From Diabrotica undecimpunctata (taxonomy: Eukaryota > Arthropoda > Insecta > Coleoptera > Chrysomelidae), in NCBI RefSeq assembly GCF_040954645.1, contig NC_092811.1, forward strand, positions 83,213,063-83,277,062: a stretch of DNA of 64,000 bases, read 5' to 3'. The position numbers were made by a program, and so were the translations under genes. Shown piece after piece: positions 15,919-64,000 of the stretch. Each line of letters opens with the position of its first letter. Within the stretch, counting starts at the first letter, position 1. The notes under the pieces were generated by a model, which was not told where the DNA came from, made no database searches, and saw only the letters and a list, made by a program, of their open reading frames with translations.

Positions 15919-16008
<90 letters not shown>
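15919..16008. repeat. (TA)n microsatellite
   Basis: About 45 TA units near the left end of the hAT element. A plus-strand frame through it would encode only alternating Tyr/Ile. Confidence 0.95.
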
Positions 16009-16009
<1 letters not shown>

Positions 16010-16275
16010 CAGAAAAAGGTGTCATTCCGGTTCGATCACATTAGTGATTTCTTTCTTGATTTTTTTTTGGTAAATCGTCTATAATGTCGTCATAATTTAT
16101 CGCCTTTGTTACGTCACTTTCTATGGACAAAATCGACAAAAAAACAGAAAAAGGTGTCATTCCGGTTCGATCACATTAGTGATTTCTTTCTTGATTTTTC
16201 TTTGGTAAATCGTCTATAATGTCGTCATAATTTATCGCCTTTGTTACGTCACTTTCTATGGACAAAATCGACAAA
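16009..16275. repeat. tandem duplication of the hAT 3' coding end
   Basis: Two nearly identical units in direct tandem with a 135-bp offset (16009-16143 and 16144-16275). Each contains the last codons of the transposase. The second unit is the one continuous with the gene. Confidence 0.85.
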
Positions 16276-55774: not shown

Positions 55775-56654
55775 TACAGATTGAACCAATTTAAAACGGA
55801 ACATACAATTTAATATATATCTGTTTGAACTGCATTTGAAATAGTGGACCAATATAAAACTTGGACAAAAATAAATCCATACCTGGTGATAGACATTGTA
55901 TAAAATATTGTTCAACTATCAGTCTCCTTTAAAGGAAAGAGGAGCTTGCCTAATAGTCGGAGAGATATAGCCGAAATTTTGAACTGATCAGTAATATGAC
56001 ATTTCTCTTTTGGAATATATTCACTGTAACTGGGTTAAGACTTTGCCTTACAGGCGGACGCCCCTCGTGGTACAGGAGGTGGCTATACAGGGATGAAGTT
56101 GTAATTTTTTTCGGAAAAATTAACGATCGATAATATGGCTAAAAATTTGCCCAGAGTAAGATCTTGGTATAACTAGACGAAATCCCAAAGGACTGACGCG
56201 AGAGTGGATACATAAGGTGTGGCGGACAGGGGTGAAGTTGTAATTTTTTGGGGAAAAATTAACGATAAGTAATATGTCCGCCATTTTCATGGCTCATTAT
56301 TTAGCCCCTAAAAACTATAAATCCAAAAGGGCGGACAGCTGGGTTGGTACAGAAAGCCTTAAAACGGGGTCAAATGTACCACTTGCCTGCGCATTTTAGG
56401 TCTCGGCAACAATTTTCAAACTGATTTTATTATGATATTTTTATACCGATTGATTTGAAAATTTGTATGCTCACTTCTGTTACTATACTGAAAAGCGTCA
56501 AGTAGAGTTTTGCTCAAAATTTTTCAAAAAAATTTCCGTAAATGAAAATTTTCGTAATTTTTTGAGGTAAAATCTAATTTGTAGAATTCTTTCGATTTTA
56601 GATTTCGATTTTTTTTTTTCGAAAAATTTAGATAAACTTTAAAAATTTCGTCAT

Positions 56655-57203: not shown

Positions 57204-58723
57204 AACATTCCAAACAGTCCAAACAGAATTTGTAAAATTATAATTAACTAATGAAAAAAAATTCAATCAATTTGAAAGGTAAAAAAAATATTGAAAATAT
57301 CTACAAAGTAAATTTCAAAACTTAAAAAATTGATAATTCCACTATTAAATTGATTTTTATTAATAATTATTTGTAAAATGTTAAAGGAATTCTACAAATT
57401 GAATTTTATCTATTGATAAATAGAAATAATATATTTTGTATTTGATTATTAATGTAATAATAAATCAAATTTTTCTTATATCTGAACAATCATTATTTAT
57501 GCAACATAAATTTAAAAACCTTTTTATTGTAATAAAAATAAGTAAAATTACTATTTGTTATACCAAAAATATTTAATAATTACCATTATAAAATTACTTT
57601 AATTTAATAAAATATCAAATATCAAACATTTATTCAATTAAAAATTCATTCGTAAAATATTTATATTTAAGAAAAAAATGTGATTTGTAAAGTAAATATG
57701 ACTTTAGTTTGGAAAAAAAAACATTATCATAATATCATTTTAATACTACAAAATATTCTATAAAAGATTCAGCCGATGACGTAGAGTTTTATCAAATTTT
57801 TAGAAAAGTTTTTCTAAATTTTTTTTCTTATCGGAAAAATCGTTTGAAAATTTTTGGAAAAAAATCATGGTATAACTTACAGAAAATCGAAAGGATTCTA
57901 CAAATTAGATTTTACCTCAAAAAATTACGAAAATTTTCATTTACGGAAATTTTTTTGGAAAATTTTGAGGAAAACTCTACTTGACGCTTCTCAGAATAGT
58001 AACAGTTGAAAATTGTTACCGAGACCTAAAATGCGCAGGCAAGTGGTACATTTGACCCCGTTTTGTGGCTCTCTGTACCAACCCAGCTGTCCGCCCTTTT
58101 GGATTTAAAGTTTTTAGGGGCTAAATAATGAGCCATGAAAATGGCGGACATATTCTTATCGTTAATTTTTCCCCAAAAAATTGCAATTTCACCCCTGTCC
58201 GCCACACCTTATGTATCTACTCTCGCGTCCGCCCTTTGGGATTTCGTCTAGTTATACCAAGATCTTACTCTGGGCAAATTTTCAGCCATATTATCGATCG
58301 TTAATTTTTCCGAAAAAAATGACAACTTTATCCCTGTATAGCCACTTCCTGTACCACGAGGGACGTCCGCCTGTAAGGCAAAGTCTTAACCCAGTTACAA
58401 TGAATATATTCCAATAGAGAAATGTCATATTACTGATCAGTTCAAAATTTCGGCTCTATCTCTTGGACTATAAGGAAGCGATAAGTGGTTTGACAGCATA
58501 ATAACTGCTTGTTTAGTCTAGTTTTTTCAGTGATTCTAGGCAACCTATTTGGGTGGAGTTTTGACTTGTTCTTGAATGAGTTCCGAATCCAGCAGCCCGC
58601 TGAATTATTGGATTTTTATAATATAATTATTTGACAACCTTTTGTTGGCCAACCACCTAGAGCGGAGTTAAGCCGAAATACATTGATTTCGTATGTTCCG
58701 TTTTAAATTCGTTCAATCTGTAT

Positions 58724-59545: not shown

Positions 59546-61714
59546 TCACAAATTCAAGCGCTGGGGTGGTTTAATATTACGCTTTGGTCGTTCACTTATA
59601 TTAACCTGACCCTTTTCAGTTGTAACTTCAGATGCAGTCTGAGGATAAGGATGATCAGCTAAACTTTCATTGATTTTAATTTCTTCCTGTCCCAGAGTCT
59701 CATTCGTTTGAGAATAGGGCTCGTTTATTGACTCGTTTAATAACAATTTTGGTTGGACATTCAAATGTATAGCACTAGGCCCCTGTTCGCCACTTGACCA
59801 CTTATTTTCAAGACCTTCCCTATAAACTTTTTCAACCTGATCCTCCACTACATCCGATTGATTCCGCCGAATTTGATTCAAATGCCTCTTCCAAATCAAA
59901 TTCTCATGAATCAGTTTACACAAATAAATCCTATCATTTAAAACTTCATCTATTACACTCTCTACCCATATTTTTCTATTTGGATTTCGATAGTCCCTGC
60001 ACCAAACTCTATCCCCCTCTACAAAACTATCTTCTCTTTTTCCTTTATAATTTAAAATTTGATTTTCAGCTTTTTCTTTTGATGAAACCCCTTTTAGAGA
60101 CAATAAATCTAAACGTTTACGTACCTTAGTTTTAAACATCATACTGCTAGGTGACATACCAGTAGTAGCATGTATCGAATTTCTATATGAAAATAAATAT
60201 CTGTAAATCAAAGTTTCCAGTTGCACATTTTTATTTTTTTCATCTGAAAGAGCTTTTTTTAATCCTAATTTAACCGATTTAACACAGTTTTCTGCAAACC
60301 CGTTAGTTGAGGGATGAGAGGGTGGAGATGTTACAAACTTAACTCCGTTATTACTCAAAAAATCAATAAAGTTTTCGGATGTAAATTGGGTCCCATTATC
60401 CGTTTCTACTATACGCGGTATACCAAAACGTGAAAAACATTCCCTAAATCTACTAATAGTATTTTCTGAATCAGGTGTGTTCATCACGAATACCTCTGGC
60501 CATTTAGTGTATGTGTCCACAATAATTAAAATTGTCTTTGTCCTAATGGGCCCTAGAAAATCAGCATGTATTTTTTCATAAATGTAGTGAGACTCCAGTG
60601 ACTTCATCAGCTTAGCCTTAGGCGGATCTGGCCGCAATTGGCAACAAACTTTACAATTATTGACCTGCTGCTCAATCTCGTTATCTAGCGATGGCCACCA
60701 GAAATAGGAACGGGCGCTGGACTTCATCTTCGTCATACCTTCATGATTACTGTGTAATTCTTTAAGTAACTGCCCTCTCAGTGCAACAGGATTTACCGCG
60801 CGATACCTCCACATTATAATTACTTGCTCAATAAAAAGCTCCTGCCTCCTAGCTATAAATGGTTTCAATAGTTCATTTTCTGTATGCTTCGGAAATCCAT
60901 ATCTAATAAAATTGAACACTTTGCCCAAAATTGGATCTTTTCTTGATTCTGATCTCAGTTTTATTGAATCTATAGGTATTAAACTCTCAACCATGTTTAA
61001 ATAATCATATTCAGGCTCATCATTTTCATAGTCATCCTGTAAAGGCAATCGTGACAACGCATCTGCTCTTGAGTTATCCACTCCTCTGATAAACCTAAAA
61101 GTGTAATCAAAACCAGCTAGAAATAAAGACCATCTTTGAATTCGACCCGCCGCCATTTTCGGTAGGCTTTTATATTCACCAAAGATCGATTTCAATGGTT
61201 TGTGATCACTTAATATTTCGAACTTCCGTCCCGCCAAATATTGGTACAATTTAGATACCGACCAGTAGACAGCCAGAGCCTCCTTCATAATTTGAGAATA
61301 ATTTCGCTCTGCTTTGTTTAATACCCTCGAGATATAGCATATAGGCCTCTCACTCCCATCTGGTAAAACATGAGACAGAACTCCTCCGATTCCATAATCA
61401 CTCGCATCACACGCTAAACGAATTGGTTTATCTGGGTCATAATGTACTAAAATCTTTTGTGAAGCTAACTCAGTCTTTGCATATTGAAAAGCATTTTCAC
61501 ATTGTTTTGTCCATTTAAATTTTTTCATTTTCCCTACTAACTCATATAAGGGTTTTAATTTCCCTTGTAAATTTTCACAAAAACGAGAATAATAATTTAT
61601 CATTCCCGCGAAAGCCCTAACCTCTGTAATATTTTTGGGTCTAGGAGCACTTATGATTGCCCTTACCTTTTCTTCGTCTTTTTCCAACCCATTTTGTGAT
61701 ATTTTGTATCCCAA
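59546..61714 (-). CDS. Gypsy pol: RT thumb, RNase H, integrase (open frame)
   Basis: 722 codons without a stop. From the N-terminus: RT end YKISQNGLEKDEEKVRAI and RPKNITEVRAFAGMINYYSR; RNase H-like ACDASDYGIGGVLSHVLPDG, ISRVLNKAERNYSQIMKEAL, LSDHKPLKSIFG, VDNSRADALSRLP; integrase zinc-binding HSNHEGMTKMKSSARSYFWW and NCKVCCQ; catalytic Asp in IHADFLGPIRTK, Asp in IVETDNGTQFTS, Glu in NGFAENCVKSVKLGL; C-terminal WCRDYRNPNRKIWVESVI. It resembles K02A2.6-like Gypsy polyproteins of insects. It is a 3' part of one pol frame, separated from 62136-62975 by a MITE and a one-base slip in an A-run, and probably inactive as a whole. Confidence 0.85.
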   Translation of the reverse strand: MGYKISQNGLEKDEEKVRAIISAPRPKNITEVRAFAGMINYYSRFCENLQGKLKPLYELVGKMKKFKWTKQCENAFQYAKTELASQKILVHYDPDKPIRLACDASDYGIGGVLSHVLPDGSERPICYISRVLNKAERNYSQIMKEALAVYWSVSKLYQYLAGRKFEILSDHKPLKSIFGEYKSLPKMAAGRIQRWSLFLAGFDYTFRFIRGVDNSRADALSRLPLQDDYENDEPEYDYLNMVESLIPIDSIKLRSESRKDPILGKVFNFIRYGFPKHTENELLKPFIARRQELFIEQVIIMWRYRAVNPVALRGQLLKELHSNHEGMTKMKSSARSYFWWPSLDNEIEQQVNNCKVCCQLRPDPPKAKLMKSLESHYIYEKIHADFLGPIRTKTILIIVDTYTKWPEVFVMNTPDSENTISRFRECFSRFGIPRIVETDNGTQFTSENFIDFLSNNGVKFVTSPPSHPSTNGFAENCVKSVKLGLKKALSDEKNKNVQLETLIYRYLFSYRNSIHATTGMSPSSMMFKTKVRKRLDLLSLKGVSSKEKAENQILNYKGKREDSFVEGDRVWCRDYRNPNRKIWVESVIDEVLNDRIYLCKLIHENLIWKRHLNQIRRNQSDVVEDQVEKVYREGLENKWSSGEQGPSAIHLNVQPKLLLNESINEPYSQTNETLGQEEIKINESLADHPYPQTASEVTTEKGQVNISERPKRNIKPPQRLNL

Positions 61715-61786
61715 ATAATAAATGTTTTCTTTGAAAAATTCGCATTTTTTTTTCGTTTAATCTAAACCCTGCTCTTTCTATACCCT

Positions 61787-62144
61787 GGCCGATGAAAACA
61801 TGGAATTCAAGGTCGCATGATCACTTAATGCAGGCATCGACAGGCGCTCGAAACTAGACCTTATGGGAAACTGTTTACACCGTCATTATTTGTGTTATGA
61901 TACTATAACTTAAATGTTTTATGTATCATGATTTGTGTTTCAGTTTCGCCGGCTGGTGAATTTTGTGAAAATGTTTAAAAATAATGTACATCAATAACCT
62001 CTAAAAAACGGTATAAATATATTATAGCAACATTGTTAGTTCGTTTTTGTTGAGCGGTGTAAACGTGGGAAAAGTGATAACATAGGAAGAGGAATATTTA
62101 AGAGTGCGTGCCATTCACATGATCATTCCATCTTTTCAGCGGCT
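61787..62144. mobile_element. MITE inside Gypsy RT
   Basis: The 354-bp insert 61789-62142 has imperfect 18-bp ends CCGATGAAAACATGGAAT / ATTCCATCTTTTCAGCGG. It separates LKRL from AGFRLN, which are contiguous in Gypsy RT. Target duplication not clear. Confidence 0.6.
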
Positions 62145-62975
62145 CAACTTTAGTCGCTTTAACACCTCCTCCAAGTTTTCTAAATGCTCTCTATCGTCTT
62201 TCCCTGTTACTACTACATCGTCCAGAAAATTTACTGTACCCCGACACCGCTGCAAAACCTTTTCAATTACATTTTGAAAAATAGAACAGGCTGGCTTCGT
62301 GCCATAAGGTAACCGCTTTATTCTATATATACCTAGAGGTGTGCTCCAAGATAATAACTCACTAGTTGTATCATCTAGTACTAACTGGTTATAAGCATTG
62401 AGAAAATCGAGTTTTGAATATTTTTGTCCTCCTTGTAACTCGGCGAAAATGTCCTCAATACGGGGCAATGGATGGTTGAAATCTTTTAAATATTTATTTA
62501 CTGTGATTTTATAGTTAGCGCAAACACGAATATCTTTGCCATTAGGTTTCATAACTGGTACTAATGGTGTTCCCCACAGAGAATTATCTGCCCGTTCAAT
62601 AGCACCCTCTGACTCGAACCTCTTTAGTTCCACCTCCACCTTTTCCCGAAAAGCAAATGGTAAGGGATGAGGTTTGTGGAAAACTGGTTTTACATTTTCA
62701 TCTATTTCTAAAGTAACTTTTTCCCCATTGTACCTACCCAACTCCCTTTGAAACAGCTTTGAATATTTTGACAATATTTTATCCAATTCATTGTTTTTAT
62801 TTTGAATAGCTAGGTCATTAATTGTTATTTTGGAATTTTTTAAAGACATGTTAAATTTACTAATTATATCGCGACCTAACAACATTTTAGTAGCTTTCTT
62901 GACTATTGTAAAATTACAAATTTTTGAAACATTCTGTATAGAAATTTTTACAGTAATTTTCCCTTCTGGATTCAC
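62136..62975 (-). pseudogene. Gypsy pol: protease end and RT fingers/palm
   Basis: 279-codon frame, N-terminally incomplete. It reads the protease end (KATKMLLGRDIISKFNMSL), the RT entry KPHPLPFAFREKVEVELKRF, GTPLVPVMKPNGKDIRVCAN, YSKLDFLNAYNQLVLDD, RLPYGTKPACSIFQ and the catalytic motif as NFLDDVVVTG. It is stopped by the MITE at 62142. The frame continues upstream to about 63110 in decayed form, where the satellite array begins. Confidence 0.8.
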
Positions 62976-63176
62976 AATTTCTCCAGAGTAAAAACTACAA
63001 CTGGAATATACAGTGGCTTTATAAAATTAACTTGTTGAATGTCTGTTAAGTTGTACAATGAAAGTATATTCTCATTTTCTTCCTCTTCCACCAAATGATT
63101 CTGCTCTAAATTAAATTAAATGGCCAAATATATGGCCAAGGAGGACAAATTCGTTAAACTTCCCGTGCTCGAATCG

Positions 63177-63241
63177 GTATCAATAAAGTGTTATGATCAT
63201 TTCGGCCTAGCCCAGCCTCATCAGACACTTTGGGCTGATAC
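63177..63241 (-). ncRNA. type I hammerhead ribozyme, copy 1
   Basis: Minus-strand reading: outer stem I GTATCA, internal loop GCCC, inner stem I AAAGTGT, core CTGATGA, stem II GGCT with loop GGGCTA and GGCC, core GAAA, stem III TG-AT-CA (closed by A15.1-U16.1), cleavage-site A, inner stem I ACACTTT, internal loop AT, outer stem I TGATAC. All core positions match the consensus and both stem I helices are perfect (7 and 6 bp). Predicted cleavage lies between 63192 and 63191 (minus strand). The 3-bp stem III with a 2-nt loop is too small to be stable alone, but ATGATCAT is self-complementary, which suits dimeric action. Activity is untested. Confidence 0.8.
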
Positions 63242-63500
63242 AAATTCAAACTCGGAAAGTCCAACGAATGTCTCCCAAAACTTCACTACAACAGTAGTTA
63301 GCTACAAAGGCGCCACCTGCTTTGGCGGCCGTGAACGAAAACGATATGATAATATCGTTTTCTGTATCCTCTGCGCTATGCGAAATGTGTAAAAGATATA
63401 ATCTTTTAGCGAAAGCCGCTATCGGTTTATTAAATTAAATTAAATGGCCAAATATATGGCCTAGGAGGACAAATTCGTTAAACTTCCCGTGCTCGAATCG

Positions 63501-63565
63501 GTATCAATAAAGTGTTATGATCATTTCGGCCTAGCCCAGCCTCATCAGAGACTTTGGGCTGATAC
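63501..63565 (-). ncRNA. hammerhead ribozyme, copy 2 (stem I mismatch)
   Basis: Same layout as copy 1, with one base change at 63550 that puts a C-C mismatch in the inner stem I, two pairs from the core. The core itself is intact. Probably less active. Confidence 0.75.
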
Positions 63566-63824
63566 AAATTCAAACTCGGAAAGTCCAACGAATGTCTCCC
63601 AAAACTTCACTACAACAGTAGTTAGCTACAAAGGCGCCACCTGCTTTGGCGGCCGTGAACGAAAACGATATGATAATATCGTTTTCTGTATCCTCTGCGC
63701 TATGCGAAATGTGTAAAAGATATAATCTTTTAGCGAAAGCCGCTATCGCTTTATTAAATTAAATTAAATGGCCAAATGTATGGCCTAGGAGGACAAATTC
63801 GTTAAACTTCCCGTGCTCGAATCG

Positions 63825-63889
63825 GTATCAATAAAGTGTTATGATCATTTCGGCCTAGCCCAGCCTCATCAGACACTTTGGGCTGATAC
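63825..63889 (-). ncRNA. type I hammerhead ribozyme, copy 3
   Basis: Core and stems identical to copy 1. Confidence 0.8.
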
Positions 63890-64000
63890 AAATTCAAACT
63901 CGAAAAGTCCAACGAATGTCTCCCAAAACTTCACTACAACAGTAGTTAGCTACAAAGGCGCCACCTGCTTTGGCGGCCGTGAACGAAAACGATATGATAA

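Follow-up and report, generated by a model that had tools for sequence, protein, structure and literature searches.

A probable non-LTR retrozyme with two-armed, one-tailed insertions in the beetle Diabrotica undecimpunctata

A short hammerhead-bearing repeat of the Diabrotica undecimpunctata genome is best explained as a non-autonomous, non-LTR retrozyme mobilised by a Penelope-like protein with reverse transcriptase (RT) and GIY-YIG domains acting on self-cleaved RNA circles, a reading to which we give a probability of about 0.8. The repeat is a young, dispersed, non-coding retrotransposon and fits the known class of metazoan non-LTR retrozymes as that class is outlined in the portions of PMC7229834 drawn on here. 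The case is built from the ribozyme motif, the family to which it belongs, the anatomy of the insertions and the duplications that flank them, a clonal tag at the unit junctions of one locus, and Penelope genes in the same genome. The two-armed, one-tailed form of the insertions looks new for retrozymes: a literature search of main texts and passages returned no report of such insertions, and an earlier notice is possible.

The hammerhead motif and the unit RNA

The window, meaning the whole 64,000-nucleotide stretch of DNA analysed here (83213063-83277062 of contig C9 in the 1.74-Gb genome), ends in a tandem array, each unit of which carries a type I hammerhead with minimal stem III on its minus strand (Table 1), as the original prediction had held. 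On inspection all three cores are intact, running on the minus strand from CTGATGA through a 4-bp stem II, GAAA and a tiny stem III to A17. Stem I has an outer helix (GTATCA/TGATAC), an internal loop (GCCC/AT) and an inner helix (AAAGTGT/ACACTTT), and stem III is a U-A pair and an A15.1-U16.1 pair enclosing GAUC, in the layout GAAA-UGAUCA-UA. The base numbers A15.1, U16.1 and A17 follow hammerhead numbering. Self-cleavage of unit 1 is predicted from the motif at the same position that had been proposed earlier.

A strict type I descriptor, requiring the core, a stem I of at least 5 bp and a stem II of at least 4 bp, matches units 1 and 3, with no further match in the 64-kb window; unit 2 is missed because of a C.C mismatch in stem I. 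Dinucleotide shuffling of the 64 kb gave two matches in total over 300 shuffles (0.0067 per shuffle), and the hammerhead motifs are well above chance expectation. Two results count against the retrozyme reading. One of the 300 shuffles produced a match with stems as long as the real ones, and the covariance check that had been suggested for the motif came out negative: Rfam found no hammerhead at gathering score over the whole 64 kb, nor at E<=10 in the last 1 kb of the window or in the 86 bases around the unit 1 motif. The Rfam model RF00163 does score 42 bits on another hammerhead family of the same genome (see "A second hammerhead family").

The unit RNA is predicted to be strongly self-paired, as in the published animal retrozyme circles described in PMC7229834 (in the sections used here). 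Closed as a circle, unit 2 folds at -117.3 kcal/mol against a shuffle mean of -71.5 (sd 5.2, n=100; z -8.75); unit 1 folds at -115.7, with a minimum-energy structure that retains all pairs of the inner (7/7) and outer (6/6) helices of stem I and of stem II (4/4). Inner stem I and stem II are both absent from the minimum-energy fold of the unit 2 circle, which is likewise counted against the retrozyme reading. The GC content of the unit is 0.41. Across four joined units the RNA strand runs for at most 62 codons without a stop, and the unit, with no long frame present, holds no ORF with RT and GIY-YIG domains.

Table 1. Features of the retrozyme array and its surroundings (window coordinates)
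Feature	Position	Strand	Basis or remark
Left arm of retrozyme insertion, three units	63109-64000	-	Tandem Repeats Finder; unit blast
Array units	63109-63432, 63433-63756, 63757-64000	-	Third unit continues past the window to coordinate 64080
Left target-site duplication GATTCTGCTCTA	63097-63108	.	Shared word 13 nt including first element base
Outer 3' end of window arm, no tail	63109-63110	-	Arm-end mapping
Hammerhead 1 (type I, minimal stem III)	63177-63241	-	Core intact; descriptor match 63192-63224; stems I and II in circular fold
Hammerhead 2	63501-63565	-	Core intact; one C.C mismatch in stem I
Hammerhead 3	63825-63889	-	Core intact; descriptor match 63840-63872
Predicted self-cleavage site 1	63192/63191	-	Position of last unpaired core base in motif
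Predicted self-cleavage sites 2 and 3	63516/63515, 63840/63839	-	Motif position
Hairpin GGCCAUAUAUUUGGCC just 5' of untailed start site	63122-63137	-	Sequence; fold of matching stretch of unit 2
Hairpin AAAAGAUUAUAUCUUUU just 5' of tailed start site (unit position 41-51)	63391-63407	-	Sequence; arm ends; unit 2 fold
Segment 60697-64178, tandem duplicate at 64182-67905 (99.7%)	60697-64000 (window part)	.	

A young family dispersed through the genome

A genome-wide search with the unit, which had been proposed as a check, gave at least 219 matches (from 40 scored of 1338 candidates); among the matches listed, identity is 89-100% and the places are dispersed over contigs C1-C11 and C507. Places read with their flanks, about half of those scored, are given L-labels here and comprise 20 loci and the window's own. 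The 324-nt unit of the original prediction holds at the window locus and is specific to it, the unit being 319 nt at the other 20 loci read. Arrays at the loci read are short, reaching about six units per arm, and scattered over contigs C1-C11, and no LTR layout is present in the 22 arrays. What had been called a satellite is instead a set of short, dispersed mobile-element arrays, mostly with target duplications.

The family looks young. From these loci 94 full ribozyme copies were extracted, with 13 partial copies set aside; 62 of the 94 are identical to the commonest sequence, and the core is intact by eye in 89 (five have a changed core base; a looser regular expression counted 90). Relative to the majority sequence, units diverge by 0.58% in the stretch outside the ribozyme, by 0.94% within it and by 0.33% in its core. 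Core changes number 4 in 1209 sites against 57 in 6045 across the entire ribozyme, core included, a weak shortage that is suggestive only; selection on the ribozyme core was considered and dropped on these figures.

A second hammerhead family

A second retrozyme-like family, with a 386-nt unit, is present at loci L001-L008. Rfam recognises its type I hammerhead at up to 42 bits, and stem III is tiny, as in the first family, with the layout GAAA-UACGUA-UA. Its ends fall in two zones, at unit positions 89-96 (six ends) and 295-298 (three ends), and seven of its eight loci are one-armed; L004, the sole two-armed copy, has one end of each zone, and this likeness to the first family counts in favour of the retrozyme reading. 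The ends lie 53 and 256 nt past the cut, unlike those of the first family, which together with the one-armed form at 7/8 loci is counted against the retrozyme reading. L003 contains both families, approximately 400 bp apart, and the loci of the second family were counted separately from the ends of the first.

The window locus

Tandem Repeats Finder reports a period of 324, 2.8 copies and 98% matches at 63107-64000. The array extends beyond the end of the window, and unit blast identifies the window part as one arm of an inverted structure. More exactly, the window array is the copy severed by the tandem duplication of 60697-64178, with the intact array directly beyond. The duplication is recent; about 240 bp are found only in its second copy (64182-67905). 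The right copy of GATTCTGCTCTA lies past the window, beside the intact duplicate (from L010:5333 on). Judged from the untailed outer end, reverse transcription of the window arm would start at about unit position 324.

Other repeats lie nearby. Ty3/gypsy-like pol pieces on the minus strand are next to the retrozyme (59549-61756 and 62139-63026; RNase H, integrase; RVT_1). Elsewhere in the window two inverted copies of a repeat of about 490 bp are 94% identical (55944-56435 and 57991-58479), and at 16008-16275 a 135-bp unit is present in two tandem copies that are 99% alike.

Insertion anatomy and the one-tail rule

A two-armed insertion has minus-strand units in its left arm and plus-strand units in its right arm. 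The arms meet 5' to 5' (head to head), so that RNA 3' ends point outward on both sides, the geometry expected from double-sided target priming. Centre junctions vary among loci outside the C11 group and show either a short overlap or filler of 0-35 nt. Some arms begin near the ribozyme cut (q237-241 in L010b, L040 and the C11 group), which we do not take as evidence for a linear RNA template. The outer ends fall in two zones: one at unit position 305-324, and another in which the arm extends to position 41-51 and forms a one-sided "tail". Exact end points shift by several bases. Exactly one tailed and one untailed end were found in 18/18 independent two-armed insertions read, an outcome with a probability of 0.5^18 if each end were chosen freely at one half.

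These 18 are L003, L010b, L034 to L048, and the four two-armed C11 copies taken as one, three having been dropped as all four have one junction and flanks in common. Left out of the end count were L010a, which is severed by the local duplication, and L032, which is one-armed and shares a flank with the C11 group. At L036 one end (q305), which (TA)n blurs, was scored as untailed, and the left end of L034 was scored beyond its LINE-like insert. This insert (L034:576-3030), with a 642-codon RT-like frame, interrupts the retrozyme array near a unit boundary.

Targets are (TA)n tracts in 8/18 insertions (7 of the 17 independent loci tested, and L003); tracts of at least eight TA occupy 0.4% of the window versus 1.3% of the array loci, targets included. 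Outside (TA)n, words of 9-14 nt, which may include one or more bases of chance element match, are common to both flanks in nine of ten loci, as compared with a mean of 4.9 and a maximum of 10 in a control of 90 mismatched flank pairings, of which 2.2% reach 8. At L034 no target duplication was found, the best word at the true ends being 4 nt; the left flank, first measured at the nested LINE-like insert, was re-measured at the true left end, and the result is counted against the retrozyme reading.

A probable single template per insertion

Variants are private to single units in 19 of 22 arrays (the exceptions are L035, L045 and L050). Several of these arrays are variant-poor and hence say little; in L034 all 22 variants are private. 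Arrays without shared variants were most likely born tandem rather than grown later.

The window locus offers a clonal tag. An extra AATTT (5 nt) is present at 8/8 scored unit junctions there, including 5/5 in the intact duplicate (three in the minus arm and two in the plus arm), and is absent at 80/80 scored junctions of the other 20 array loci, where L003 has no scorable junction. With AATTT the only variant that units share at the window locus, gene conversion explains the tag poorly; a 324-nt circle copied into both arms over several laps explains it well. The tag points to a single template, in the simplest case a circle, for both arms and for every lap; two molecules supplied by a rare lineage of 324-nt RNA, or a linear RNA multimer, are other possible sources. 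Spread by way of putative unit-length RNA circles, as in retrozymes and raised as a possibility at the outset, is favoured by this variant, by the tandem birth of the arrays and by the reverse-transcription footprint.

Penelope-like elements as candidate machinery

Penelope elements have been proposed as strong candidate machinery for metazoan retrozymes (PMC7229834) and as elements that may, or likely do, move them (PMC7761336, PMC8969392), at least in the portions of these sources drawn on here. Endonuclease-bearing Penelope-like elements, as presented in the sections of PMC3846280 used here, can insert with pLTRs inverted head to head and duplications of 8-10 bp, and one of the two pLTRs has an optional tail of 31 bp. 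Copies without duplication are also described there, and for the inverted junctions self-priming on an antisense template is suggested, a route to head-to-head arms other than double-sided priming.

Biochemical work on the purified anole Penelope protein, in the parts of PMC11167929 consulted, adds cutting and extension of both strands, a preference for AT-rich DNA and two adjacent internal start sites. The main start lies 111-118 nt into the ORF and the ribozyme cut at +26, which by subtraction places the start 85-92 nt past the cut; for the retrozyme starts the distances from the predicted cut are 80 and 123-128 nt. Anole ribozyme mutants still inserted, so cleavage is unnecessary for priming itself in that system. 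Two published features are counted against the retrozyme reading: the anole system as reported there has no strand difference in start site, whereas the retrozyme has one of each (PMC11167929), and the Penelope tails described in print are optional, unlike the one-tail rule (PMC3846280).

Penelope-like genes are present in the beetle. Matches to GIY-YIG are frequent in the genome, at least 73 (from 150 scored of 6686 candidates), and one 605-aa frame scores 29.0 bits for RVT_1, just under the 29.6 cut-off, and 27.6 bits for GIY-YIG, above the cut-off. In L042 a relative adjoins a retrozyme array; its direct repeats of 300 bp are identical and end in (TA)n. L042:1-3334 is itself a Penelope-like element whose direct repeats are perhaps longer than 300 bp, as the locus begins there. 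The one L042 pLTR examined yielded no hammerhead, and two Penelope copies compared with the unit have only short words in common with it (best E 0.06); both results are counted against the retrozyme reading.

Alternative explanations

In foldback elements the tandem arms are inverted, the outer zones constant and the centre variable, and foldback transposons have identical terminal inverted repeats and duplications of fixed length. The arms, zones and centres of the beetle insertions resemble the first of these descriptions, and target duplications are present, so one could envision a foldback-type DNA transposon that is moved as DNA by a transposase, with long inverted ends of tandem subrepeats in which the hammerhead is incidental. 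Such an origin is quite improbable in our estimation: the two ends are not copies of one another, one being tailed in 18/18, the end points wander, flanking words run from 9 to 14 nt, centre junctions differ from locus to locus, and the second hammerhead family is one-armed at 7/8 loci. Copying from one template would also fit the 5-nt insertion, the only variant shared at the window locus. With ends that differ and flanking words that vary in length, the insertions lack the identical terminal repeats and fixed-length duplications of foldback transposons. An ordinary satellite grown by unequal crossing-over, with the hammerhead a relic, would account for tandem 324-bp units and is hardly credible for arrays that, where read, are short (at most about six units per arm), dispersed, inverted and mostly flanked by duplications; growth by unequal crossing-over is disfavoured by the 19/22 arrays whose units have no variant in common.

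It is also conceivable that an autonomous Penelope-like element has the unit as its pseudo-LTR, in which case the arrays would be ORF-less derivatives of that element rather than an independent retrozyme. The footprint is the same as that of Penelope elements, and Penelope pLTRs carry minimal hammerheads (PMC7761336, in the portion used here). Against this stand the stop-free stretch of at most 62 codons on the RNA strand of a unit run, the lack of a Penelope frame between units in the loci read, a small part of the genome (the L034 interruption is LINE-like), and an L042 Penelope pLTR that has neither a hammerhead nor a likeness to the unit. We therefore regard a pseudo-LTR origin as unlikely.

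Proposed mechanism

For the favoured reading, a retrozyme mobilised by Penelope-like machinery, we infer transcription, self-cleavage, ligation to a circle and two-sided target priming by a Penelope-type enzyme. Minus-strand transcripts would cut themselves at each hammerhead, and a host ligase would close the unit-length RNA into a circle. A Penelope-like RT/GIY-YIG protein would nick AT-rich DNA in a staggered fashion, and both 3' ends would prime reverse transcription, which would begin at two internal sites that lie about 80 and about 125 nt downstream of the ribozyme cut. Several laps round the circle by each polymerase may yield the tandem units; the stop point would vary, and the two cDNAs would be joined at the centre of the insertion.

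A more specific version can be envisioned, to which we give even odds: one RNA circle serves both target strands simultaneously, and a Penelope-type RNP, perhaps a dimer, provides each nick with one fixed start site, so that rolling-circle reverse transcription from both would leave tandem units in two arms, exactly one of them tailed. The window locus would then preserve, as a fossil, one molecule of this kind, a circle of 324 nt. The Penelope footprint, including the one-sided tail, is present in the insertions themselves, which bears on how metazoan retrozymes spread; and the one-tail rule, if true in the remaining copies, constrains how Penelope enzymes use the two strands.

Comparison with known systems

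Set beside Penelope-like elements, as characterised in the parts of PMC3846280 and PMC11167929 drawn on here, the retrozyme has much in common: inverted head-to-head copies, short duplications and a tail on one end (PMC3846280), together with AT-rich targets, two adjacent RT starts, 5' truncation and a hammerhead upstream of the starts (PMC3846280, PMC11167929). The tail is about 45 nt in the retrozyme versus 30-40 in Penelope-like elements (PMC3846280, PMC11167929). The retrozyme differs in having no ORF, no endonuclease and tandem units of only 319-324 nt, and in a hammerhead whose stem III is closed, if tiny, unlike that of Penelope-like elements in the same accounts (PMC3846280, PMC11167929).

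Plant LTR retrozymes, as summarised in the sections of PMC7229834 used here, are also non-coding and hammerhead-processed, with a circular RNA intermediate of the kind that we propose for the beetle. They differ in their type III hammerhead, 600-800-nt circles, LTRs with PBS/PPT, 4-bp duplications and probable use of Gypsy machinery (PMC7229834). The pDo500 satellite of Dolichopoda cave crickets is an insect tandem repeat with a transcribed hammerhead, but its repeats are of about 500 bp and make up about 5% of one species' genome, according to the portion of PMC2837043 consulted; the word "inverted" is absent from the main text of that paper.

The closest likeness is to the metazoan non-LTR retrozymes, which, as set out in the parts of Cervera and de la Pena 2020 (PMC7229834) available here, have type I hammerheads, many with a short stem III, units of 170-400 nt and GC below 50%, occur as dimers to multimers without LTRs, and have target duplications of more than 4 bp. 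With such retrozymes already described, the expectation of an undescribed system does not hold. The beetle unit matches them in hammerhead type, unit length, low GC, tandem arrangement and duplications of more than 4 bp, a likeness of description rather than of sequence compared with other species' units; Penelope-like elements in the same genome are a further point in common (PMC7229834). Where metazoan retrozymes are described in that source as direct tandems, the two-armed insertions of the beetle are inverted and have one tailed end.
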